From Streptomyces sp. NBC_01429 (lineage in GTDB: Bacteria; Actinomycetota; Actinomycetes; Streptomycetales; Streptomycetaceae): a DNA stretch of 64,000 nucleotides. The notes beneath the pieces were generated by a model that was not told the origin of the DNA, searched no databases, and saw only the letters and a program-made list of their open reading frames with translations. Made by a program: the position numbers and the translations under genes. Below, piece after piece: positions 5,956 to 35,725 of the stretch; position 1 is the stretch's first letter, and the number at the start of each line of letters is the position of its first letter. The stretch lies in the NCBI RefSeq assembly GCF_036231945.1, contig NZ_CP109599.1, forward strand, positions 5,173,501 to 5,237,500. Reading direction: 5' to 3'.

Positions 5956-6502
5956 GAGTCCATCCCCCCGCACGCACTTCGCTGCGTGTCTGGTCGATCG
6001 GTTCGTCCGGAATGGTCCCCCTCGACCATCACCCCGGACGCGTCAATTGCGCCCCCTGTCCGGTATGGACAGAAACGGCGGCCGTTCGGTTGCGTGATGC
6101 GACGACGACGGCCATGCGTGACGCGGAAGCCCCCCTGCCCCGTCGGACCCCTCCGTCGGGACAACTCCTCGTGCCGTGTCCAACTGTTCGGACCGCATGC
6201 CCCATTGGGGTCAATGGGTTCAGGATAGGTTCTCCGACCCCCGTCGTGATCGCAAGGAAGAAAAAGGCCGAATGTAGGTCATTTGAGCGATTTGAGCGAC
6301 CGGTGTGACGGATGTGTGATGGATGTGATGGCGACCATGCGCCATCGTTCACAGGTTTCGAGGGCATGTGTACGGGGTTGAGCGCGCGGGTGTGAGCCGC
6401 CCCACGAACCGGGCAGGCCCGGTGAACACGGCGGAGCCGGCGGGCGGCCCGGTCGCCGGACGCGCGGGCGTCGCGCGGAAATCGCCGCCGGGTGAACGAG
6501 CG
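5956..6502. other. Intergenic region upstream of cslA
   Basis: This 547-bp stretch separates cslA from the tRNA-Lys terminator. I see no credible gene. It must carry the cslA-glxA promoter. An A-rich patch near 6250-6266 and a tandem 9-bp direct repeat (ATTTGAGCG twice, 6281-6298) are the most distinctive features and could be regulator contacts, but no -35/-10 pair stands out. Confidence 0.5.
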
Positions 6503-6531
6503 AAGCCCCTTCACGCGTGGTGAAGGGGCTT
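6503..6531 (-). terminator. Intrinsic terminator of tRNA-Lys copy 1
   Basis: A 12-bp perfect stem (AAGCCCCTTCAC paired with GTGAAGGGGCTT) with a 5-nt loop lies about 10 bp beyond the 3' end of the tRNA gene in its direction of transcription. Confidence 0.85.
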
Positions 6532-6541
6532 GCGCTGTGCG

Positions 6542-6615
6542 TGCGCCGCCAGGGACTCGAACCCCGGACCCGCTGATTAAGAGTCAGCTGCTCTAACCAA
6601 CTGAGCTAGCGGCGC
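6542..6615 (-). tRNA. tRNA-Lys(CTT), copy 1 of 3
   Basis: The minus strand folds into a complete cloverleaf: acceptor GCGCCGC/GCGGCGC, discriminator A, D arm GCTC..GAGC, anticodon stem GCTGA/TCAGC with loop CTCTTAA (anticodon CTT, reads AAG), and T arm with GGTTCGAACC. CCA is not encoded. A likely -10 box (TAGAGT, 6631-6636) sits 16 bp upstream of the tRNA 5' end and a strong terminator follows. The same sequence recurs at 11860-11933 and 28568-28641. Confidence 0.97.
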
Positions 6616-6798
6616 CTGCTGACCTGGAGAACTCTACCCGATCGGAGCGAGTGGCTCCGACCATTTGATGGGTGTTGCGGCCTGTCGGATTGTCTTTTCT
6701 TACCTTTGATCCGTCAAAATGCGACTTGTCTGGACAGTTGAGAAACTGGCGCCCGTGCAGACGCGTCAAAAGATCTTGATGAGTGTGGAGGGGATCGC

Positions 6799-8259
6799 AT
6801 GACCGTCCCGGTCTTCGAGGAGTACGAGCCCGCTCTCGACTGCCCCTGCGCAGGGTGTGCCGAGCGACGGCGGGATCTGGCCAGAGGGCTGCCGGTACGA
6901 GCCGGTGGCCACCCGGCCGCGCACGGCGTGCGCCGCGCGCTCGTCCTGGCGACCGCCGCCGGGGTCGCGCTCGGCGCCACCGGTGTCGGCGCCGACTCGG
7001 CGCGGGCGGCGGCAGCGCCGGCCAGCCCGCAGACCGGGCCGTCCCTGCTCGACGCGGCCGCACAGGGTGCCGCCGCGCTGCCCGCCGCCCCCGACCCGGA
7101 CACCCCGCAGGGCGGCAGCGCGCCCCTGCACGGGCGTCCGCTGCCGGGGCCCGGCTCCAGCCATCCGTCGGCCGAGCTGCGCAAGTCCACCCGGGCCGAC
7201 ATCATCAACCGCGCCAAGCGGTGGGTGAACGCGAAGGTGCCGTACAGCATGGAGAAGTTCTGGTCGGACGGCTACCGGCAGGACTGCTCCGGCTATGTCT
7301 CGATGGCCTGGAACCTCGAAGGCAACGAGTGGACGGGCAGCCTCGCGCAGTTCGGGGTGCGGATCGAGCGCGAGGAACTCCAGCCCGGCGACATCCTGCT
7401 CTTCCACAATCCGGCCGACCCGAACAAGGGGTCGCACGTCACGATCTTCGGCGGCTGGACCGACTACACGCACTCGTCCTACGTGGCGTACGAGCAGACG
7501 AAGCCGCACACCCGCTCGCAGGCGACGCCGATGGCGTACTGGAGCAATTCCAGCCGGTACGTGCCCTACCGCTACAAGGGGCTGGCCGAATCCTCCGACG
7601 GCAAGGGCCCGGGACCGGATACGGGTACGGGCGCGGGTTCGGGCAAACCCACCGGCACCGGCGCCTCGGCGACGTTCCCCGGAGCGTCCTCCTTCGGCCC
7701 CGGCGCCAACAACAAGTACGTCACCCAGCTCGGCCAGATGCTGGTGGAGCGCGGCGGCAAGCGCTTCTACACCCAGGGCCCGGGGCCGCGCTGGAGCGAG
7801 GCGGACCGCCGCGCGACCCAGGCGTTCCAGCGGGCGCAGGGCTGGCGCGGCCCGGACGCGGACGGGCTGCCCGGCCGGGACACCTGGCGCTATCTGGTGA
7901 ACGGACTGGGCAAGAACATCCCGGCCGCGGGCGCGGGCGGCAGTCCGGGGGTGAGCGCGAGCGCCGGAGCGCAGGGCGCGAGCGCCCAGGGCGGCAGCGG
8001 CGCGCAGGTGAGCGCGGGCGCGCCCGCGTACCCGGGAGGCGCGTACTTCCGGCCGGGCCGCTCCAGCACGCATGTCGCCGAACTCGGCAAGCAGCTCGTG
8101 CGCAAGGGCTTCGGCAAGCACTACTCCACGGGCCCCGGCCCCCGGTGGACCGAGGCCGACCGGCGCAATGTCGAGGCGTTCCAACGCGCCCAGGGCTGGC
8201 GCGGCGCCGAGGCCGACGGCTACCCGGGCCCGCAGACCTGGCGGCGACTCTTCGCATGA
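6799..8259 (+). CDS. Secreted NlpC/P60-like hydrolase with two peptidoglycan-binding repeats
   Basis: The 486-residue protein has an unusual N-terminus with a Cys pair (CPCAGC, about residues 15-20), then an Arg-Arg leader and hydrophobic stretch (about 45-75) that looks like an export signal or anchor. Next comes an NlpC/P60-like domain (about 130-265) with the catalytic Cys in DCSGYVSM and a His in GSHVTIFGGW, which suggests a cysteine peptidase or amidase acting on the cell wall. Two C-terminal repeats of about 70 residues, each ending near AFQRAQGWRG and an xTWRxL motif, look like peptidoglycan-binding modules separated by Gly/Ala/Ser linkers. RBS GGAGGGG precedes the ATG. The next gene starts 11 bp after the stop, so the two form an operon. 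In S. coelicolor the equivalents lie beside cslA, which fits a role in wall remodelling for glycan passage; that role is inferred. Confidence 0.8.
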   Translation: MTVPVFEEYEPALDCPCAGCAERRRDLARGLPVRAGGHPAAHGVRRALVLATAAGVALGATGVGADSARAAAAPASPQTGPSLLDAAAQGAAALPAAPDPDTPQGGSAPLHGRPLPGPGSSHPSAELRKSTRADIINRAKRWVNAKVPYSMEKFWSDGYRQDCSGYVSMAWNLEGNEWTGSLAQFGVRIEREELQPGDILLFHNPADPNKGSHVTIFGGWTDYTHSSYVAYEQTKPHTRSQATPMAYWSNSSRYVPYRYKGLAESSDGKGPGPDTGTGAGSGKPTGTGASATFPGASSFGPGANNKYVTQLGQMLVERGGKRFYTQGPGPRWSEADRRATQAFQRAQGWRGPDADGLPGRDTWRYLVNGLGKNIPAAGAGGSPGVSASAGAQGASAQGGSGAQVSAGAPAYPGGAYFRPGRSSTHVAELGKQLVRKGFGKHYSTGPGPRWTEADRRNVEAFQRAQGWRGAEADGYPGPQTWRRLFA

Positions 8260-8270
8260 CGGAGGCAAGG

Positions 8271-10139
8271 ATGACCACGACGACCCCGCAACCGAACGAC
8301 GAAGGGCCCGACCTGCGAGGCGTGTTCGCCGTACGGCCCGAGTCGTTCCCGGCGGACGCCGGCTACGGAGGCCCCGGCGAGGACGTACCCGCCCCGGGGA
8401 TCCGGCCGCAGGAGCCGGTGATCGAGCACGCGGAAGGTACGGGTGCCGCGGAACACGCGGTGGACGCGGATGCGGACGCGAGGGAGGGGGAGACGAGGGA
8501 CAGGAGAGATGTGCGGGACGTGTGGGACGTGTGGGACACGGACGGTACGGCGGACACCGAGCCGCGCAGGGAGCCGGTCGCCGCGTCGGTGGCCGCGCCG
8601 CTCTTCGCCGCCGACCCGGACTTCGACCCGGACCCCGACCCCGACCCCGACCCGGAACCGGTCACCGCTGCCGACCTCGCCCCTGATTCCGACCTCGGCC
8701 TCGACCCTGCTCCCGACTCCGACTCCGACTCCGACTCCGATCCTGCTTCCGCTTCCGCCTCCGCGACGAGTCCCGCCGACACCGCGCTCCTCGCCCCGTG
8801 GGAACTGCCCGTCCCTCTGACCCTAGGCGGCGGCGCCGACAGGGCCACGGACAGTGGCCCCCGCGAAACGGGTCTCCGCGAAACGGATGCGCACGAAACG
8901 GGTCCGCGCGAGACCGGTTTCCGCGAGACCAGTCCCCGCGAGACCGCCTCCGGCACCGCCCCCGGCCCGCGCACCGGCGCCGCCCTCGCCGACGGCGGCC
9001 GGCCGCCCCGGTGGAGTCCGCTCATCGTCGGGGAGAGCACCCACGAGATCCCCGTCCACCTCCTCTTCCGCGACGAGGCCGACCGCCCCGACGCGGGAAC
9101 GGGCCGCCCCGCGATGCCCAGGCCCACCGTCATCGGCCGCCGTTGGGGCTCCGGCGAGCAGCCCCGGGTACGGGAGCGGCCGCCCGTACCCGTACCCGTA
9201 CCCGTCGTACCGGCGCGAGCCGCTCCGTCCGGTGATCCGAAGCTGGCCGAGCGGCCGGGGCCCGTGCTCCCCGGCTGGGCCGCCGTGCTCACCGGATGCG
9301 CGGCGCTGCTCGCGTGCGTGGCGGTGGCGTGGTGGTGCGGGGCCCTGCCGGACGCGGTGACCGGGGCGTTCCGGCTGCCGTCCCGTCCGTACCACGGCGT
9401 CGGGGTCGGGACATGGGCCCTGCTCGCGCTCGGCGCGACGGTCGCGCTCCTCGCCTTCGGCGGGCTCGGTCGCGGCCGGGTCGGGCACGCGTGGGTGCTG
9501 ACGCTCTTCGGCGACTACCGGGGGAGCGTGCGCCGTACGGGACTGCTCTGGGTGAGCCCGCTCCTGCTGCGCCGCGGAGTGGACGTACGGCTGCGCCACT
9601 GGCGCAGCGAGCCGATGCCCGCCGTCGACTCGAACGGTACGGCGCTGCGCGTGGTCGTCCTGGTGGTCTGGCGGGTCAGGGACACGGTCCGCGCGGCGCT
9701 CGGGGTCCAGGACCACGAGGAGTATCTGCGGGAGCAGGTGGAGGCGGCGATGGCGCGGGTGCTCTCCCAGCTGCCCGCCGACGCCTTCCACGACGAGGCG
9801 CCGACGCTGCGGAACGCCGAGGCGGTGGGCGACGCGCTGACGCGGATGCTGGCGGCGGAGTGCCGGCCCGTCGGGGTCGATGTCTTCTCGGCCCAGCCGA
9901 CCCGGATCGAGTACGCGCCGGAGATCGCCGCCGCCATACAGCGCAGCCGGATCGCCGCGATCGACGCCAAGCACCGGGACAGCGTGCTGACATCGGTGGT
10001 GGACGCGGTGGACGACACCGTCAGCCGGCTGACCTCGCGCGGGCTGGTCGAGCTGGACGACTACGAGCGCAAGGCGCTGGTCAAGGATCTGACCGTGGCC
10101 TTCTACACGGGACGGCAGGGGGTCGGCGAGAGGCTGTGA
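8271..10139 (+). CDS. SPFH/Band 7 membrane protein with low-complexity N-terminal half
   Basis: Residues 1 to about 300 of this 622-residue protein are low complexity, with runs of Asp-Pro, Ser-Asp and a six-fold R-E-T-x-x repeat. Two hydrophobic helices follow (about residues 325-350 and 370-390), then an SPFH (stomatin/prohibitin/flotillin) domain including LTLFGDYRGSVRRTGLLW, VVWRVRDTVRAAL and a C-terminal helix. SPFH proteins oligomerise on membranes and organise microdomains or protease complexes. I chose ATG 8271, with ACGGAGG 5 bp upstream, over the ATG at 8256 that overlaps the previous stop. The N-terminal repeats are encoded by near-perfect tandem DNA repeats and are probably length-variable between strains. 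Confidence 0.85.
   Translation: MTTTTPQPNDEGPDLRGVFAVRPESFPADAGYGGPGEDVPAPGIRPQEPVIEHAEGTGAAEHAVDADADAREGETRDRRDVRDVWDVWDTDGTADTEPRREPVAASVAAPLFAADPDFDPDPDPDPDPEPVTAADLAPDSDLGLDPAPDSDSDSDSDPASASASATSPADTALLAPWELPVPLTLGGGADRATDSGPRETGLRETDAHETGPRETGFRETSPRETASGTAPGPRTGAALADGGRPPRWSPLIVGESTHEIPVHLLFRDEADRPDAGTGRPAMPRPTVIGRRWGSGEQPRVRERPPVPVPVPVVPARAAPSGDPKLAERPGPVLPGWAAVLTGCAALLACVAVAWWCGALPDAVTGAFRLPSRPYHGVGVGTWALLALGATVALLAFGGLGRGRVGHAWVLTLFGDYRGSVRRTGLLWVSPLLLRRGVDVRLRHWRSEPMPAVDSNGTALRVVVLVVWRVRDTVRAALGVQDHEEYLREQVEAAMARVLSQLPADAFHDEAPTLRNAEAVGDALTRMLAAECRPVGVDVFSAQPTRIEYAPEIAAAIQRSRIAAIDAKHRDSVLTSVVDAVDDTVSRLTSRGLVELDDYERKALVKDLTVAFYTGRQGVGERL
8863..8950 (+). repeat. Tandem 15-bp coding repeat, about 6 copies
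   Basis: The unit approximates CGCGAAACGGGTCTC and encodes R-E-T-G/D/S-x inside the SPFH protein. Adjacent simple repeats, GACCCC at about 8622-8656 and GACTCC at about 8714-8738, encode Asp-Pro and Asp-Ser runs. Confidence 0.8.
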
Positions 10140-11851: not shown

Positions 11852-11859
11852 CCTGTCTG

Positions 11860-11933
11860 TGCGCCGCCAGGGACTCGAACCCCGGACCCGCTGATTAAGA
11901 GTCAGCTGCTCTAACCAACTGAGCTAGCGGCGC
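11860..11933 (-). tRNA. tRNA-Lys(CTT), copy 2 of 3
   Basis: The sequence is identical to the copy at 6542-6615, including the CTT anticodon and discriminator A. Its likely -10 box is TATTAT (11948-11953), 15 bp from the tRNA 5' end and the best match to consensus of the three copies. Only the flanks differ between copies. Confidence 0.97.
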
Positions 11934-28561: not shown

Positions 28562-28567
28562 TGTCGG

Positions 28568-28641
28568 TGCGCCGCCAGGGACTCGAACCCCGGACCCGCT
28601 GATTAAGAGTCAGCTGCTCTAACCAACTGAGCTAGCGGCGC
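28568..28641 (-). tRNA. tRNA-Lys(CTT), copy 3 of 3
   Basis: The sequence is identical to copies 1 and 2. The likely -10 box TAAGGT (28657-28662) sits at the same distance as in copy 1, and all three copies share the flank CTGCTGAC directly upstream. Confidence 0.97.
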
Positions 28642-29494: not shown

Positions 29495-29845
29495 CTACGG
29501 GTGTCCCGCCAGTCCCTCGCCGCTCAGCAGGTCCCGGCCGAATTCGACCATCTTCTCGGTGTAGTCCTCGGTCCACTCCGCCCGCAGCGCGATATCGGCG
29601 GTCGTCAGCCGGTCGAAACGGCGCGGATCGGCGAGCTGCGCGGCGGCCACCGCCTGGAACTCGACCGCCCTGTCCGTCGCCGCGCGGAACGCGAGAGTGA
29701 GCTCGGTCGCTCTGGACAGCAGCTCGGCCGGGTCCTCCAGGGACTCCAGATCGAAGAAGTGCTCGGGGTCGGCGACCGCCTCCGAGGGCTCGAAGAGCAG
29801 TGGCGCCGGTCGTACCCGCCGCTCGCTCCGCTCGGCATCCGCCAT
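29495..29845 (-). CDS. Small conserved hypothetical protein
   Basis: The 116-residue acidic, helix-rich protein has no domain I recognise. It contains the segments LLFEPSEAVADPEHFFDL and RAEWTEDYTEKMVEFGRDLL. The ATG at 29845 has a perfect AGGAGG 6 bp upstream. It sits upstream of the Prim-Pol-like gene on the same strand. Confidence 0.75.
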   Translation of the reverse strand: MADAERSERRVRPAPLLFEPSEAVADPEHFFDLESLEDPAELLSRATELTLAFRAATDRAVEFQAVAAAQLADPRRFDRLTTADIALRAEWTEDYTEKMVEFGRDLLSGEGLAGHP

Positions 29846-29971
29846 GTGGTTCCTCCTGCTCGTGCGTGTACGGGCCCCATGGGCCACCATCCATTGTCCA
29901 ACCGCGCGCAAGTGGGCCTCGGAACGGCCGTGCGGACCGGTGCTCGCGCGCGGTGGGACCTGCGTTGAGCC

Positions 29972-30579: not shown

Positions 30580-31926
30580 TTACGGGCGCCAGCTCACCCT
30601 GTGCTCCGACAGCCGCGCCAGCACCGCGTGATTCGCCTCCCAGCCGTCCGGGAACTTCACCGTGACCCCCAGCTGCACCGGTTCCGTCGACGGATGCTCG
30701 TCGAGCAGTTCCGCGACGCCCGCCCGGCACACCACGACGCACGCGTGCCGGTGCCGGGAGGCGAGTACGCACAGCCGGCCCGTCTCCAGGTGGAACGCCG
30801 TCGCGTCCGGCCGGCCCGAGAGCGGGTGCAGCACCACCGTCACGTCGAACTCCCGCCCCTGGAGCCGGTTCGCGGTGTCCACGGCCACCCCCTCCACCCC
30901 CAGCTCGGCCAGCGCCGCCCGGACCGCCGCCGCCTGGTCGCGGTGGGCCGTGCCGACCGCGATCCGGTCCGCCGTCACCGGCACCGGGTCCGGCGCCCGC
31001 TCGCTGGTGGCCACGCCCCCTCGGTCCAGCAGCCTGCGGACCACCAGCGCCACCGCCCGTACCGCCTCCGGGTCCGTACGGGGCGTGTGCCGGGCCGGCA
31101 GCTCCAGCAGCCCCCATCCCGACTCGGCCGCCTCGTCCAGCACCCGGTCGGGACCCGAGCCGTCCGACGCCACCCCGAAGGCGAGCCGCCGGTCGCCGGG
31201 ACCGGTGCCGCTGCGGAACGGGGTGTACGGGTAGAACGCGTCCGACACCAGCGGCGCCGCCGACGCGGGCAGCCGCCACGACACGGGCAGCCGGTGCTGG
31301 GGCAGCTCCGGGTTGTGCGCGAGCAGCGTCGAGACCGCGCTCGCCGACGGGTCGTACGACAGCCCCGCCCACTGCTCAGCGCCCACCACGCTGAACGGGT
31401 CCAGCTGGCCCGGGTCCCCGACGAACAGCGCGCGCTCGAAGAGACCGGCGACGGCGAGCAGCGCGTCCGAACGCATCTGGTACGCCTCGTCCACGATCGC
31501 GTGCCGCCACGGCTCGACGCCCTGCACATGCGCCCACTTCGCGGCCGTCGACACCACGATGTCCAGCCCCGCGAGATCGGCGGCCTTCGCGGACTTGCGC
31601 ACGGCGGGCAGCTCGTCCAGCGCCTTGTCGTACGGGTCCGGGTCGTTGCTGTGCAGCCGGCCGACCGGCAGGTCGGGGTCCTTCTCGGCGAGCCGTACGA
31701 CGAGATCGTCCACCTGTGCGTTCGTCTGCGCGACCACCATCAGCGGACGCCCCGCAGCGGCCAGCTCCAGCGCGGCCCGCACGACCAGCGTCGACTTGCC
31801 GGCGCCGGGGGGCGAGTCGACGACCACGCCGCGGTGGGGGCTGTGGAGGGTGTCGCGGAGGATGGCGTCGGTGGCGCGGGTGGCCGCGACGGCGGGGTCG
31901 GCGGCACGGGTCGGCTGCGCGTGCAT
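30580..31926 (-). CDS. SF1 helicase of the Upf1/Dna2 type
   Basis: The 448-residue ATPase carries the superfamily 1 helicase motifs in order: Walker A SPPGAGKST (about residues 38-46), Ia VVAQTNAQVD, motif II VDEAYQM, motif III GDPGQLDPF, motif IV PVSWRLP, motif V DTANRLQGREFDVTVV and motif VI ASRHRHACVVV. The compact layout and DEAY/GDPxQL motifs place it nearest the Upf1-like (SF1B, 5'-3') helicases, the class fused to the nuclease in eukaryotic Dna2. The ATG has AGGAG upstream. It is the last of three co-directional genes with the Fe-S nuclease and an unknown protein. A role in DNA end processing or defence is inferred. Confidence 0.85.
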   Translation of the reverse strand: MHAQPTRAADPAVAATRATDAILRDTLHSPHRGVVVDSPPGAGKSTLVVRAALELAAAGRPLMVVAQTNAQVDDLVVRLAEKDPDLPVGRLHSNDPDPYDKALDELPAVRKSAKAADLAGLDIVVSTAAKWAHVQGVEPWRHAIVDEAYQMRSDALLAVAGLFERALFVGDPGQLDPFSVVGAEQWAGLSYDPSASAVSTLLAHNPELPQHRLPVSWRLPASAAPLVSDAFYPYTPFRSGTGPGDRRLAFGVASDGSGPDRVLDEAAESGWGLLELPARHTPRTDPEAVRAVALVVRRLLDRGGVATSERAPDPVPVTADRIAVGTAHRDQAAAVRAALAELGVEGVAVDTANRLQGREFDVTVVLHPLSGRPDATAFHLETGRLCVLASRHRHACVVVCRAGVAELLDEHPSTEPVQLGVTVKFPDGWEANHAVLARLSEHRVSWRP

Positions 31927-31987
31927 CAGGGCTCCTGGTGCGGGTGCGGGTCTAGGTGTGGGTGGTCGAGGGCGTGGGGTTCCTGTC

Positions 31988-33607
31988 TCACAGGATGTCC
32001 TCGTCCGTCATCGCGTCCGGCGCCGACGACTCCGGTGCTGACGACCCCGGCGCCGACGACTCCTGCGGCGGCCCCCCGTGCGTCCACGGCGTCTCCTCCG
32101 GGTCCGGGAGTTTCGGGCCGCCCCGCTGATCGTGTTCGAAGAGGGTCCAGGCGATCAGGTCGCCCTTCGCCGGGACCGAGCCGGGCGCCGGTTCCCTGGT
32201 GCGGCCCATGCGGTCGGTCAGCCGCAGGAGCAGGGTGCCGTCCGTCTCGTCGACGGCCCGGACGAACTCGGCCGACTGCGGCTTGCCCTCCAGCGAGCGG
32301 TAGACCTTCGTACGCTCGCCCAGGTGCGGGCGGTCGTCCGTGCGGACCGTGATCAGGGGGCGCGGGCTGGGGCGCTTGCTCTCGCTGTAGGCCATGACGA
32401 CCTCCGTGACCTCGCCGAGGAACGCCTCGCCGGAGAGCCTGCGTCCGGCCAGGACCAGCGGGTCGTCCAGAGCCTCCTGTGCCTCCAGCTGCGCCTGCGC
32501 GCTCTCGCGGGAGGCCAGCTTCTGAGCCGCCGTCACCGCGTCGTCCCGGCGGGGCTGCGGCGGTTCCCCGGCGCGCACGCGGTCGCGGTGGCCGGTGAAC
32601 GACCAGCGGTCGCGGGTCCAGCGGTCGGCGACCCTGGGGCCCTCCGGCAGCACGCGCAGCAGATCGAGGCCGTCCCACACGGCGTCCCAGGTCGGCCGCA
32701 TGACCCCGGCCAGCAGCTCGCGGATCCGCCGCTCGGCGGCGGTCAGCCGGGCGAGCTGCTCCTCGGCGCCGGGGCCGTCCTCGGCCGCCGCGAGCGTCTG
32801 GCGTGCCCGGTCGTAGGACTCGATGGCCGGGGCCAGCAGCCGGTTGTCGAAGGCCGGATCCGTCGCGGGGCCGGCCGGCGGGCACAGCAGCTGTCCCTCC
32901 CGGTCCCGGTCCAGCTCCGCGCGCAGCGCCGCTTCCCCGCCCGTGAGCCCCTCCGGAGGCGCGAGCCAGGCCAGGAGCGCGCCCAGATGCTGGTCCTCCA
33001 GGCTGGACTGGCCCGTCGCCCAGTGCCGGTTCAGCAGATCGGTCGCCGCGAGCAGCAGCGAGGAGCCGGGCACCCGGGCGCGCTCCCCGTAGTGCGTCAG
33101 CCAGCGGCCGAGCAGCGGCACCCGAGGGGGAGCGGGGTACGGCGTGTCCGGGTCGTCCTCGGCGGTGCGCCGGAACCGCATGGACCGGCCCAGCAGCCGT
33201 ACGAAGTCGAGGCCGGGGCGGCTCGGCACGATCAACTGCGGCGCGTCCACGCACAGCTCGACCTCGACCTTGACGCGCTTGCCGGTCTCCGGGTCCGTCT
33301 CGTTGCGCTCGGCGGGCTCGATCACATCGGCGTACGCGTCCAGATACGGCAGGACGGCCTCGGCCAGCTCCCCGAGGAACGCGAACCGCAGATCACGGTC
33401 GCGCGGCTGCGCGACCGTCAGCAGCCGGGGCGAGTCCCGGTCCGTGCCGACGAGCGCGCCGAGCGGAGCACCGGCCTCGCCCGAGGTGGTGAGCGGCACG
33501 AGCACGAGCGGCCGGTCGGAGATCCGGCGGTGCCGGACGGTGGCCAGCGGCTGGGCCTGCCCGCTCTGCACGGCTTCCAGCCGCGCGAGCGTACTGATCA
33601 GCGACAT
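31988..33607 (-). CDS. Unknown middle protein of the nuclease-helicase operon
   Basis: I do not recognise a family for this 539-residue protein. It has no signal or membrane segment. Its N-terminal half is beta/alpha mixed (RPLVLVPLTTSG, FAFLGELAEAVLPYL, AECVD-like LCVDAPQLIV), followed by a helical region (about 280-345, TAAERRIRELLAGVMRPTW) and a C-terminal half with a possible small beta domain (KVYRSLEGK, LLLRLTDRMGRT, KGDLIAWTLFE). The tail has a three-fold E/G-S-S-A-P repeat. Its ATG overlaps the nuclease stop by one base (TGATG) with GGGAGG upstream, and 61 bp separate it from the helicase gene. Conserved linkage suggests a shared complex. Confidence 0.75.
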   Translation of the reverse strand: MSLISTLARLEAVQSGQAQPLATVRHRRISDRPLVLVPLTTSGEAGAPLGALVGTDRDSPRLLTVAQPRDRDLRFAFLGELAEAVLPYLDAYADVIEPAERNETDPETGKRVKVEVELCVDAPQLIVPSRPGLDFVRLLGRSMRFRRTAEDDPDTPYPAPPRVPLLGRWLTHYGERARVPGSSLLLAATDLLNRHWATGQSSLEDQHLGALLAWLAPPEGLTGGEAALRAELDRDREGQLLCPPAGPATDPAFDNRLLAPAIESYDRARQTLAAAEDGPGAEEQLARLTAAERRIRELLAGVMRPTWDAVWDGLDLLRVLPEGPRVADRWTRDRWSFTGHRDRVRAGEPPQPRRDDAVTAAQKLASRESAQAQLEAQEALDDPLVLAGRRLSGEAFLGEVTEVVMAYSESKRPSPRPLITVRTDDRPHLGERTKVYRSLEGKPQSAEFVRAVDETDGTLLLRLTDRMGRTREPAPGSVPAKGDLIAWTLFEHDQRGGPKLPDPEETPWTHGGPPQESSAPGSSAPESSAPDAMTDEDIL

Positions 33608-34848
33608 CAGTCCTCCCTCCCGACGGAATTCCCCGCGAAGTTCACTGCGGAATTCTCTGCTGACCGCTCTGCCGAGTTCCCCGCTGACCGCCCCGCGAAC
33701 GCCAGCGCCTCCGCCCGCAGCGCCGCCGCTCTGCGCAGCGCCGCGACCGTCGGATCGGCCGGGTCGCCCGCCTCGCCGCGCGCCGCCGCCAGGACCTCGG
33801 GCACGGTGGTCAGGGCGCCCAGCTCGCCCCGTACGCTCCGGCCCAGCGCCTCCACCGCGTCCGCCGCGCGGGCCCGGGAGCGGCAGTGGAAGGCCAGTTC
33901 GCAGGCGGCCAGGCACTCCGGGGCGTAGGCGGCGGTGACCGACTCGACGGCGCCGGCCAGTTCCTCGCCCGTGCGGTCGCCGACGTCGAACGTGGTGCCC
34001 TCGGGGAGCGCGGCGGCGATGTCCTCGATCCGGGCCAGCCGGGTCAGCTGGCGGCGCGTCACCGAGAGCTGTTTGCGCACGTCCACGACGGAGGCCGTCG
34101 GAAGGTTCGAGAAGTCCTTCGGGCAGACCAGCAGGACGCGGTGGCCGACCTCGGCGCCCCGGGTCAGCTCGGCGACCCGCTCCAGCGCCAGTACGTACAC
34201 CGCGGCCTGCCGCGCCGCCGCGCCGACCTTCGCCGCGTCGGCCGAACCGTCGATCATCGGGAAGGACTTGATCTCCACGACCGTCCAGCGGCCGTCGGGC
34301 CGCACCACCACCGCGTCCGGCTCCAGGTACGCGGGCGATCCCGCCACCTCCAGGGCGAGCAGCGGATGGTCCAGCAGCGCCCAGGCCCCCGCCTCGGTGG
34401 CCTCCCGCAGCGCCAGCGCCGTGCGCGCCGTCCGGCCCTCGGGACCGGCCGCCGCCAGGTCGGGGACGAGCACCTCACCGGGCCCGGGTACGGGGACCCC
34501 CTCGCCGAGCCGGTCGGCGAGGAGCCGCATCAGCTCCGTACCGCCGTCGGCCTTGACCCGGGCCTCGAAGGCGTTCCCGCGCATGAAGGCGAACTGGGAC
34601 TGGCCGAACGGCGCCGGTGAGCCGAGCGCCGTCGCGAGCGCCGCCTTGTCGACCCCCGCGCCGTCCAGCAGAGCGCGCCGTCGGCAGCCGGGGTTGGCGG
34701 CGAGCGCCGCCAGCGCGCGGGCGTCCAGGGGACGTGGCGGGACGGTGGGGCCGCGCAGCTCAGCGAGTCGTCGCCGGAGCGTCGTCGGTGGAGGCGCCGA
34801 CGGCGTCGGTGGTGCTGGTGCGGGTCCGCTGCCCGGGGAATCGCTCAC
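33607..34848 (-). CDS. Cas4/Dna2-type PD-(D/E)XK nuclease with Fe-S cysteines
   Basis: The ~413-residue protein has RecB-family nuclease motifs: RGNAFE (about 90-95), LEPDAVVV (Asp178) and VEIKSF (Glu192, Lys194). One cysteine lies before the core (Cys55 in NPGCRRRAL) and three after it (Cys312, Cys316, Cys322 in ECLAACELAFHC), the arrangement that binds a 4Fe-4S cluster in Cas4, AddB and Dna2. It should be a DNA exonuclease. The tail has NSAE/NSAV-type repeats. The start is uncertain: GTG 34848 (MSDSPGSGP) overlaps the PAP2 gene by 89 bp, and a TTG at 34878 is also possible. It leads the three-gene operon with the helicase. Confidence 0.82.
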   Translation of the reverse strand: MSDSPGSGPAPAPPTPSAPPPTTLRRRLAELRGPTVPPRPLDARALAALAANPGCRRRALLDGAGVDKAALATALGSPAPFGQSQFAFMRGNAFEARVKADGGTELMRLLADRLGEGVPVPGPGEVLVPDLAAAGPEGRTARTALALREATEAGAWALLDHPLLALEVAGSPAYLEPDAVVVRPDGRWTVVEIKSFPMIDGSADAAKVGAAARQAAVYVLALERVAELTRGAEVGHRVLLVCPKDFSNLPTASVVDVRKQLSVTRRQLTRLARIEDIAAALPEGTTFDVGDRTGEELAGAVESVTAAYAPECLAACELAFHCRSRARAADAVEALGRSVRGELGALTTVPEVLAAARGEAGDPADPTVAALRRAAALRAEALAFAGRSAGNSAERSAENSAVNFAGNSVGRED

Positions 34849-35725
34849 CCGCGGAAGTCTCGCATCCACCGCTGACAATCGGGGTGGAACGGGGTGCCGG
34901 GGACGGATCCGGGGCCGGGACCGCGGACGGCGTACGCGCCGCCGTGAACCGGGCCCGCGCCCAGCTCCTGGTGTGGTCGGCCGCCCGCATCGCGGGCCTG
35001 GTCAGCGCCGCTCCCGCGGCCATCACAGCGACCCCCGCGACGGCGTCGAGGAAGTAGTGGTTGGCGGTCCCCATCACCACGACGGTGATCACCACCGGAT
35101 AGGCCACGCCCAGCCACCGCACCAGCGGGCTGCGGGCGTGCCGCCACAGCAGCACCCCGCACCACACGGCCCAGCCGACGTGCAGACTCGGCATCGCCGC
35201 GTACTGGTTGGTCATCCCGCCCAGTCCGCGCGGCGCGCTCGCCTCGGTGCCCCACCAGCCGTACGAGCTGTACTGCGCCATCGTGTCCACGAAGCCGTGC
35301 CCGGCGTCGAGCAGCCGGGGCGGGCAGGTGGGCAGGAGGGTGAAGCCGACGAGACCGAGCAGGGTGGAGGCCATCAGCCAGGTGCGGGCCGCGCGGTAGC
35401 GGGCCGGGCGGCGGCGGAACAGCCAGATCAGCACGGCCGGGGTGACCAGGTAGTGCAGCGAGGCGTACGCGAAGTCGGCGGGTATCCCGATCGCGGGGGT
35501 GCTGGTGAACAGCCGGTTGAGCGGGTGTTCGGCGTTGAGGAGGAGCGCCTTCTCCACGCGCAGGATCGCCAGCCCGTGATCGACCGCTGTCGACACGTCG
35601 CCGCGCGCCAGCAGCCGGCCCGCCGAATACGCGCCGTAGACCACGACGAGCAGGATCAGCTCCGTCCACCAGCGGGGCCGTGGGCGGGGCAGCGGTCTGT
35701 GGGTCGCGCTGGCGCTGTGCGGCAT
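34760..35725 (-). CDS. PAP2-family membrane phosphatase
   Basis: The 321-residue protein has about six transmembrane helices and the PAP2 / inositol-phosphotransferase motifs MPSLHVGWAVW and HYFLDAVAG carrying catalytic His residues. An upstream KxxxxxxRP-like motif is not obvious. Such proteins dephosphorylate lipid phosphates or transfer phosphoinositol headgroups. The disordered C-terminus (from about residue 255) overlaps the start of the downstream nuclease gene. ATG 35725 has GGAG about 10 bp upstream. Confidence 0.85.
   Translation of the reverse strand: MPHSASATHRPLPRPRPRWWTELILLVVVYGAYSAGRLLARGDVSTAVDHGLAILRVEKALLLNAEHPLNRLFTSTPAIGIPADFAYASLHYLVTPAVLIWLFRRRPARYRAARTWLMASTLLGLVGFTLLPTCPPRLLDAGHGFVDTMAQYSSYGWWGTEASAPRGLGGMTNQYAAMPSLHVGWAVWCGVLLWRHARSPLVRWLGVAYPVVITVVVMGTANHYFLDAVAGVAVMAAGAALTRPAMRAADHTRSWARARFTAARTPSAVPAPDPSPAPRSTPIVSGGCETSAGERFPGQRTRTSTTDAVGASTDDAPATTR

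Follow-up and report, generated by a model that had tools for sequence, protein, structure and literature searches.

In eukaryotic Dna2, a stalk and a beta-barrel are described as lying between the nuclease and the motor, and in the wider Upf1/SMUBP-2/DNA2 group, a barrel and a stalk are described as preceding the motor (PMC4716839). The bacterial enzyme Bad, from Geobacillus, is described as beginning with a four-cysteine RecB-type nuclease, continuing with an uncharacterised middle part, and ending with a motor of helicase superfamily 1B (SF1B), with a Type III-like methyltransferase as a neighbor (PMC7430649). Both enzymes are described as binding DNA ends or 5' flaps, pulling single-stranded DNA, and then cutting it (PMC4716839, PMC7430649), and by the same account of Bad, enzymes of the Dna2/Bad type are rare and sporadic in bacteria (PMC7430649). 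Here we consider three adjacent genes of Streptomyces sp. NBC_01429 that recall these enzymes. They lie within a stretch of 64,000 nucleotides (contig NZ_CP109599.1, positions 5,173,501 to 5,237,500; hereafter, the window), on its minus strand at 30580-34848, and they encode, in this order, a predicted nuclease (NUC, 413 amino acids), a bridging protein (MID, 539 amino acids), and a helicase motor (HEL, 448 amino acids).

We think it fairly probable that this trio is a Dna2/Bad-like helicase-nuclease that is split over three polypeptides, that does housekeeping work in Streptomyces, and that has mobile copies in defense. A preliminary description of the window, made from its letters, had already likened the genes to a split Dna2. 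Our results strengthen the structural part of that reading, as MID appears to carry the barrel that the motor lacks; for its iron-sulfur part, zinc is also possible, given the match to 3l0a that we discuss below. The description had also offered DNA end processing in either repair or phage defense. The two need not exclude each other, and we argue that the trio is probably a DNA-end-processing machine that serves both upkeep and defense. Our searches of the open-licence literature turned up no account of these three genes or of their association with SbcCD and Wadjet.

A four-cysteine nuclease

All three open reading frames are borne out where the preliminary description had placed them (Table 1), with the possibility that NUC starts further upstream, at a TTG at 34878. 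The genes for NUC and MID share a single base (in TGATG). At the second junction there is no overlap in the window, where 61 bases separate the MID stop from the HEL start. The commonest MID/HEL junction in relatives is a 4-base overlap (80 of 134 loci, with gene starts that were picked by a script near the homologous position).

The nuclease motifs that had been noticed in NUC (GNAFE, Asp178, and Glu192-x-Lys194) are present and conserved in relatives, as are the one upstream and three downstream cysteines; the residue counts in Table 1 are over 138 aligned rows for NUC and 136 rows for HEL. A further motif of the RecB family, Q214-xxx-Y218, is also conserved (137 and 138 of the 138 rows, respectively). 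Judged by its motifs and its cysteine layout, NUC would be a RecB-family nuclease of the four-cysteine kind. Its predicted structure (mean pLDDT, or predicted local distance difference test, of 69.9, with the blocks for residues 101-270 at 70-96) supports a PD-(D/E)XK nuclease fold. The Foldseek matches of this model are mostly PD-(D/E)XK nucleases, namely 3l0a (the sole match below 1e-3), RecE, the Cas4 protein Sso0001, EXO5, MGME1, and AdnAB. VIA-align, whose leading matches are likewise mostly of this nuclease type, puts Cas4 first (Z 10.4, root-mean-square deviation [rmsd] 7.1 over 145) and also lists RecE, RecB, AddAB, EXO5, and AdnAB; a DinG protein ranks third, and the alignment with Dna2 (5ean) has a Z of 5.7 and an rmsd of 5.9 over 149.

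Which metal would the cysteines hold? Cas4, EXO5, and AdnAB are all among the fold matches of NUC, and EXO5 and AdnAB are iron-sulfur proteins, which counts against zinc. Iron has been reported in Bad (PMC7430649) and in Cas4 (PMC3466216). On the other side, the top Foldseek match, 3l0a, is a RecB-type nuclease that has the same four-cysteine layout and is described with a zinc ion (PMC3466216). We consider it unlikely that the site holds zinc rather than iron-sulfur, and the remainder of our reading would be the same if it did.

Some natural copies of NUC have changed active sites. In three near-identical copies (L026, L143, and L165), E95, E192, and K194 are all replaced, and in L181, E95 and E192 are replaced; the four cysteines are kept in all of these. 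Copies with a lost active site and intact cysteines suggest that NUC does more than cut and also plays a structural part.

A motor without a barrel, and a predicted barrel in MID

Above the cut-offs, HEL matches AAA_11, AAA_12, AAA_30, and Viral_helicase1; its match to UvrD_C_2 (E = 0.46) is below the cut-off, and its nearest NCBIfam model, PLuB, is far below. The combination of AAA_11 and AAA_12 marks HEL as an SF1B motor of the Upf1 type, and its nearest solved relatives in PDB are SMUBP-2 (3e-8) and DNA2 (2e-7), with UPF1 also matched. So the helicase is the compact Upf1-like protein that had been proposed, and it does not group with an unrelated SF1 family. Only 43 residues precede the Walker lysine, K44, which leaves no room for a barrel; a barrel and stalk are absent from this chain.

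MID had been said to belong to no known family, and searches with hidden Markov models from Pfam, NCBIfam, and PADLOC agree: none of these families matches MID above its cut-off. Within PADLOC-DB 2.0.0, NUC and MID have no match, HEL has weak partial matches to its motor (the best is to MkoC, 5e-8), and none of the three is matched to a system model across the greater part of its length. The model of MID, made with AlphaFold2 (AF2), has a confident helical hairpin at about residues 251-319 and a predicted six-stranded barrel nearer to the C-terminus, with a helix before it that is a candidate for the stalk (Table 1). When this barrel is compared to solved structures by VIA-align, Senataxin is the best match (Z 9.2; 2.9 Å, 87 residues). 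Ighmbp2 matches with a Z of 9.0 (5.4 Å, 108 residues), with residues 371-501 of the model on residues 22-153 of the chain, and Sen1 matches with Z of 8.9, 8.8, and 8.8. Counting across both proteins, the Walker lysine of HEL comes 82 residues after position 501 of MID, where the barrel match ends. As far as these models can be trusted, the C-terminal part of MID probably supplies the barrel that HEL lacks, in which case the helicase itself would be split over two polypeptides. This proposal is new here.

The same matches might be taken to mean that the trio is directed at RNA, with HEL acting on RNA as Upf1 or Senataxin do and NUC removing nucleic acid in R-loops: SMUBP-2 and UPF1 are among the matches of HEL, and Senataxin and Sen1 are among those of MID. 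We think that this is very unlikely, as the fold and the motifs of NUC are those of the DNA exonuclease type and as SbcCD and Wadjet, which adjoin the mobile copies described below, act on DNA.

Conservation, gene order, and inheritance

Of 394 Actinomycetes, 70 carry MID, as do 39 of the 40 Streptomyces sampled and 15 of 296 genomes drawn across the phylum (one of these 15 matches is weak). NUC was found in 31 of 41 relatives, and when NUC from a distant locus (L139, in G267) was compared to 148 genomes of another class, it was found in its own genome only. We also note that in L139, the gene directly after HEL (6059-7753) encodes 564 amino acids that include an RNase_H_2 domain and match Cas4 weakly.

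Ten genomes without MID were searched with HEL: four gave nothing, five gave weak, motor-level matches (E of 1.5e-6 to 7e-5), and one (G253) gave fragments. The fragments of a HEL relative in G253 (L208, about 9038-9803) are not accompanied by MID or NUC and could be a decayed copy. Another genome, G025, is without NUC, and the HEL search gave weak matches only. We considered Streptomyces G010 as a case of NUC loss and rejected it: HEL is present, and because the sequence reads N throughout the position expected for NUC, we count NUC there as unknown rather than absent. A scan of contigs found at least 565 relatives, of which the best 80 are named Streptomyces in 79 cases and Actinobacteria bacterium OV320 in one; these 80 are all close to the window and are uninformative about the wider spread.

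We compared the gene order of 139 loci, which include near-copies (the L026, L143, and L165 mentioned above are almost the same) and some genomes that were taken twice. NUC, MID, and HEL follow each other on one strand in 134 of them. Three of the five exceptions (L041, L058, and L118) end at contig ends. In the other two (L140 and L175, from genomes G231 and G609 of one genus), about 36 and 49 kb separate HEL from MID, and all three genes are present, so the trio co-occurs even when it is dispersed. Both the conservation of gene order across actinobacteria and the co-occurrence of the genes outside the genus, which had been put forward as checks, hold up, with the trio present in several families. 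Against close relatives, four pairwise comparisons per gene gave ratios of nonsynonymous to synonymous substitution rates (dN/dS) of 0.21-0.31 in NUC and 0.13-0.19 in MID, and three comparisons of HEL gave 0.07-0.10; by this measure, all three genes are under purifying selection. Because the order and the motifs are conserved in other families and dN/dS is just 0.07-0.31, chance is excluded as an explanation for the trio.

Two long open reading frames looked like fusions and were rejected. An apparent NUC-MID fusion of 867 amino acids in L185 is an artefact, with two in-frame stops. In the draft locus L207, a frame of 907 amino acids spans most of MID and HEL; because the C-terminus of MID is in another frame there, we read it as an assembly frame error.

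A tree of HEL (55 rows) has clades by family, with nine core Streptomyces rows, eleven rows from family f107, nine from f106, and four from f3. Core clades that follow families are what vertical descent would be expected to give. No match to NUC, MID, or HEL was found in the phage collection. Among viral contigs, short-peptide patterns matched 37, 83, and 102 stretches, none of which encodes a relative, with the caveat that distant relatives could escape such patterns.

Pairs without the nuclease on plasmids

Relatives of HEL (about 28-37% identity) are present on plasmids of Rhodococcus, Mycobacterium, Mycolicibacterium, Arthrobacter, Cellulosimicrobium, Euzebya, and others (48 records at E of 1e-5, of which 40 were listed; three of the 48 are trio carriers). 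Nine plasmid HEL-like genes were aligned, and each is preceded by a gene for a protein of 387-448 amino acids. By hhalign, the profile of these nine upstream proteins matches the MID profile over MID residues 122-494 (96.8%, E of 2.5e-10), and the plasmid and trio helicase profiles match each other (100%, E of 5.5e-56); a mismatched control gave 0.2%. Pairs of a MID-like and a HEL-like gene are thus carried by plasmids from mycobacteria, Rhodococcus, Cellulosimicrobium, and Euzebya. Within the stretches that were fetched, eight of the nine pairs (L195, L200, and L209-L214, on actinobacterial megaplasmids) have a VWA gene upstream, and six of these eight also have an AAA/MoxR-type ATPase upstream. 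A search with the NUC profile did not find NUC in four plasmid stretches (L195, L196, L199, and L200). Because the plasmid pairs match both profiles and NUC was not found in these four stretches, MID-HEL looks, by sequence comparison, like the basic unit, to which NUC would have been added in the actinobacterial trio.

Mobile copies and defense neighborhoods

We surveyed the neighborhoods of 66 stretches, namely 62 that contain the trio (or NUC-MID, for L140 and L175) and four plasmid stretches without it. Genes were called with a crude GC-frame finder, and only a chosen set (SbcCD, a gene that we call gene 4, Wadjet, pPIWI-RE, Hma, and several more) was looked for by tblastn and family models. 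The preliminary description had suggested looking for the trio in defense islands, and some accessory copies are indeed near Wadjet, pPIWI-RE, Hma, or Type III restriction genes.

One group comprises 11 of the 62 loci (L021-L024, L142, L163, L164, L166, L172, L197, and L198). We defined this group by the presence of SbcD, so finding SbcD in all 11 is no result. SbcD is partial in L024, which has no SbcC, and in L198, where SbcCD is fragmentary. Ten of these loci fall within one clade of the HEL tree, which has 11 rows (support 95/83) and spans Streptomyces, f3, f130, f106, and plasmids; the remaining locus is the long-branched L166, from f107, which is outside the clade. Gene 4 (about 281 amino acids) is upstream of NUC in all 11 of these loci. 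More broadly, gene 4 precedes NUC in 26 of the 62 loci: the 11 with SbcD, three that are linked to pPIWI-RE, 11 from f106, and L141. The survey found no gene 4 at the core Streptomyces loci or at the f107 loci other than L166, of which there are 13. Gene 4 of L197 matches no Pfam or PADLOC family; gene 4 is a candidate subunit, or a candidate adaptor to SbcCD.

Wadjet genes are within reach in seven of the 11 loci with SbcD, and they are of two types. L022, L024, L166, and L172 have the DUF2397/DUF2398 type. L164, L197, and L198 have the DUF3375/DUF4194 type with JetC and JetD (JetD of L164 is partial, at the edge). We did not count L021, where apparent Wadjet remnants were noted by eye only, and the contig of L023 ends too early to judge. 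As the group is paired with two Wadjet types, we argue for function rather than chance. Other accessory copies have other neighbors. The three copies with replaced nuclease residues (L026, L143, and L165) are near pPIWI-RE genes, with HmaA and HmaB also beside L143, and the distant copy L167 (in G196) is at most 3 kb from a Type III restriction-modification pair.

The core copies look different. None of the queried genes was found within the stretches read around the core Streptomyces loci, the 13 f107 loci, four f3 loci (g4/g5), or two f9 loci, and the window's own trio adjoins neither SbcCD nor Wadjet. This makes it quite unlikely, in our view, that the trio is a defense system throughout, with the Streptomyces core copy as a fixed anti-phage or anti-plasmid system. 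Such a system would fit the defense neighborhoods of the accessory copies, the lack of matches in the phage collection, and the patchy distribution outside of Streptomyces (the 70 of 394 Actinomycetes and the single genome, the query's own, among 148 of the other class). On the other hand, defense systems are seldom conserved this evenly through one genus.

The opposite simplification is that the trio is purely a housekeeping helicase-nuclease for repair or replication and that the defense-linked copies are incidental passengers of islands. Its near-universal presence in Streptomyces, its syntenic location in all 11 core loci compared, the purifying selection, and the family-by-family core clades of HEL would all be expected. 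But where the clade spans Streptomyces, f3, f130, and plasmids, all but one of its 11 rows have SbcD and gene 4 next to the trio. Because these genes are retained and two Wadjet types are paired with them, passenger status is hard to uphold. We consider this explanation rather unlikely as well. We prefer the combination of housekeeping in Streptomyces and defense in the mobile copies.

How the trio might work

Gene order, motifs, conservation, distribution, and neighborhoods are direct observations, and the folds of NUC and of the MID barrel are backed by models; what we infer is the complex itself, its polarity, its activity, and its role. NUC would be a RecB/Cas4-type nuclease that is held together by the four-cysteine metal site. 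HEL would be a motor with two RecA domains, which, from its family, is expected to move 5'-3' on single strands. MID would bridge the two and give HEL a barrel (and perhaps a stalk) in trans; another part of MID would have a fold that we do not recognize. Once assembled, the complex would load at DNA ends or 5' flaps. With the MID barrel in place, HEL would pull single-stranded DNA through, and NUC would cut the strand that is pulled. The Streptomyces copy, which is chromosomal and appears to be vertically inherited, would probably use this engine for genome upkeep. The mobile relative, with SbcCD and gene 4 and often Wadjet, would probably turn this engine on foreign DNA that has been cut, and destroy it. 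Plasmid DNA linearised by Wadjet would be the substrate, and any blocked ends would be opened by SbcCD.

A more ambitious scheme seems possible to us, although we hold it tentatively. MID and HEL, as a helicase that receives its regulatory barrel from a second subunit, would form a widespread actinobacterial module that, with NUC, becomes a split-Dna2 resection complex and that, with SbcCD and gene 4 as well, becomes a mobile machine for end resection, the degradative arm of Wadjet. Wadjet would cut the circle, SbcCD would open the ends, and NUC-MID-HEL would digest the DNA; in Streptomyces, the complex would have been domesticated for upkeep.

Several observations weigh against a split helicase-nuclease. 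The cysteine regions of the NUC model have pLDDT below 50, so the clustering of the cysteines in space is putative. The C-x3-C-x5-C of NUC is also one residue off the C-x2-C-x5-C that we take to be usual in AddB, Dna2, and Cas4. With a mean pLDDT of 62.5, the model of MID is weak as a whole, and the candidate stalk helix (357-379) is of low confidence. In VIA-align, the barrel of dihydroorotate dehydrogenase B (Z 9.0) and the barrels of ferredoxin reductases (from 8.7 down) tie with the helicase barrels, to within 1 Z, and Foldseek gave no match to MID below 1e-3, with Upf1 and Ighmbp2 ranked 17th, 31st, and 38th. A plain search with the MID profile found just one of four plasmid MID-like proteins (L196, from Euzebya, E of 3e-10), and the others needed profile-profile comparison. 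Finally, there is no true fusion of any two of the trio's genes among the loci that we extracted. Because other barrels tie with helicase barrels, our assignment of the MID barrel rests partly on context: we break the tie toward the helicase barrel because motors of HEL's type carry a barrel, HEL has no room for one, and the MID barrel is immediately upstream in the operon.

If the split helicase-nuclease is real, then nearly every Streptomyces holds an uncharacterised enzyme of the Dna2/Bad type. Its layout would allow the nuclease, the barrel, and the motor to be removed or tested singly, which is hard to do with the fused Dna2, and the trio would offer a comparison for the uncharacterised middle part of Bad. 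The clusters of SbcCD, trio, and Wadjet raise a testable answer to the question of what happens to plasmid DNA after Wadjet cuts it. And because SbcCD is the bacterial Mre11-Rad50, the degradative-arm scheme, if true, would be a bacterial counterpart of the eukaryotic partnership of Mre11-Rad50 and Dna2.

Surroundings of the trio in the window

The surroundings resemble ordinary chromosome: by eye, there are candidates for a siderophore cluster, an oligoribonuclease, and a glucosamine-phosphate synthase gene. The co-oriented gene upstream of NUC adjoins it in all 11 of the core Streptomyces loci that we compared and was unmatched in the nine other loci of that comparison; it is probably not part of the machine. 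The small gene downstream of HEL is near the trio in nine of the 11 core loci. The window also has three tRNA-Lys(CTT) genes that are identical across 75 bases and that sit inside repeats of 89-131 bases with 92-98% identity. The third is flanked by two genes that stay beside the core trio in relatives, and the first two may mark an old integration or duplication.

Table 1. Positions of the features discussed, numbered within the window except for the gene 4 examples, which are numbered within their own loci
Feature	Position	Strand	Description
NUC	33607..34848	(-)	Predicted PD-(D/E)XK nuclease of the RecB/Cas4 type; four cysteines conserved; starts with GTG
NUC Cys55	34684..34686	(-)	Upstream cysteine; C in 134/138 rows, gap in 3, X in 1
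NUC Glu95 of GNAFE (91-95)	34564..34566	(-)	Motif I; 133/138 rows
NUC Asp178	34315..34317	(-)	Motif II, predicted catalytic metal ligand; 138/138 rows
NUC Glu192-x-Lys194	34267..34275	(-)	Motif III; E192 in 134/138 and K194 in 135/138 rows
NUC Cys312-x3-Cys316-x5-Cys322	33883..33915	(-)	Downstream cysteines; each in 138/138 rows
MID	31988..33607	(-)	Bridging protein of no known family; position between NUC and HEL conserved
MID residues 357-379	32471..32539	(-)	Candidate stalk, a helix predicted ahead of the barrel at low confidence (AF2 block pLDDT 37-51); its end is within the Ighmbp2 match
MID residues 391-491	32135..32437	(-)	Predicted six-stranded beta-barrel, AF2 block pLDDT 72-87; resembles Upf1-type helicase barrel (VIA-align)
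HEL	30580..31926	(-)	SF1B (Upf1/SMUBP-2/DNA2-like) motor without a barrel domain
HEL Walker A, PGAGKST	31789..31809	(-)	K44 in 136/136 rows
HEL Walker B, DEAY	31480..31491	(-)	D146 and E147 in 136/136 rows
Upstream co-oriented gene	34760..35725	(-)	PAP2-phosphatase-like by eye; overlaps NUC
Small gene	29495..29911	(-)	Same direction, downstream of HEL
tRNA-Lys(CTT), first	6541..6615	(-)	
tRNA-Lys(CTT), second	11859..11933	(-)	
tRNA-Lys(CTT), third	28566..28641	(-)	
Gene 4, examples	L197 10395..11240; L142 6965..7939; L026 7784..8785		About 281-333 amino acids

Comparison with known systems

Compared to eukaryotic Dna2, MID has the place in the operon that the barrel and stalk have in the enzyme, and DNA2 is the second-best kind of solved relative of HEL. 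The trio differs in having three proteins, an extra region in MID, and a spacing from the first to the second downstream cysteine that is longer by one residue than what we take to be usual in Dna2. SMUBP-2/Ighmbp2, Senataxin, Sen1, and Upf1 resemble HEL in their motor motifs and MID in their barrel, but they have barrel and motor in a single chain. NUC shares its fold and its four-cysteine layout with Cas4, AddB, and EXO5; unlike them, it is a stand-alone gene whose partners are MID and HEL rather than Cas1/Cas2 or a motor of the AddA type. The trio is also not AddAB or AdnAB, because the motor of HEL is not UvrD-like. Wadjet (JetABCD) and SbcCD are neighbors of the mobile copies, and neither contains NUC, MID, or HEL as described.

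Bad has the same order of modules as the trio, and as with Bad, a trio (L167) lies near Type III genes. The difference is that Bad is one polypeptide, with its Walker lysine at K815 (PMC7430649), versus three genes here. Because the defining fusion is absent, the trio is not Dna2 or Bad in the strict sense. If a complex forms, it would work like Dna2 and Bad, and the closest described enzyme may be the bacterial Bad rather than eukaryotic Dna2.

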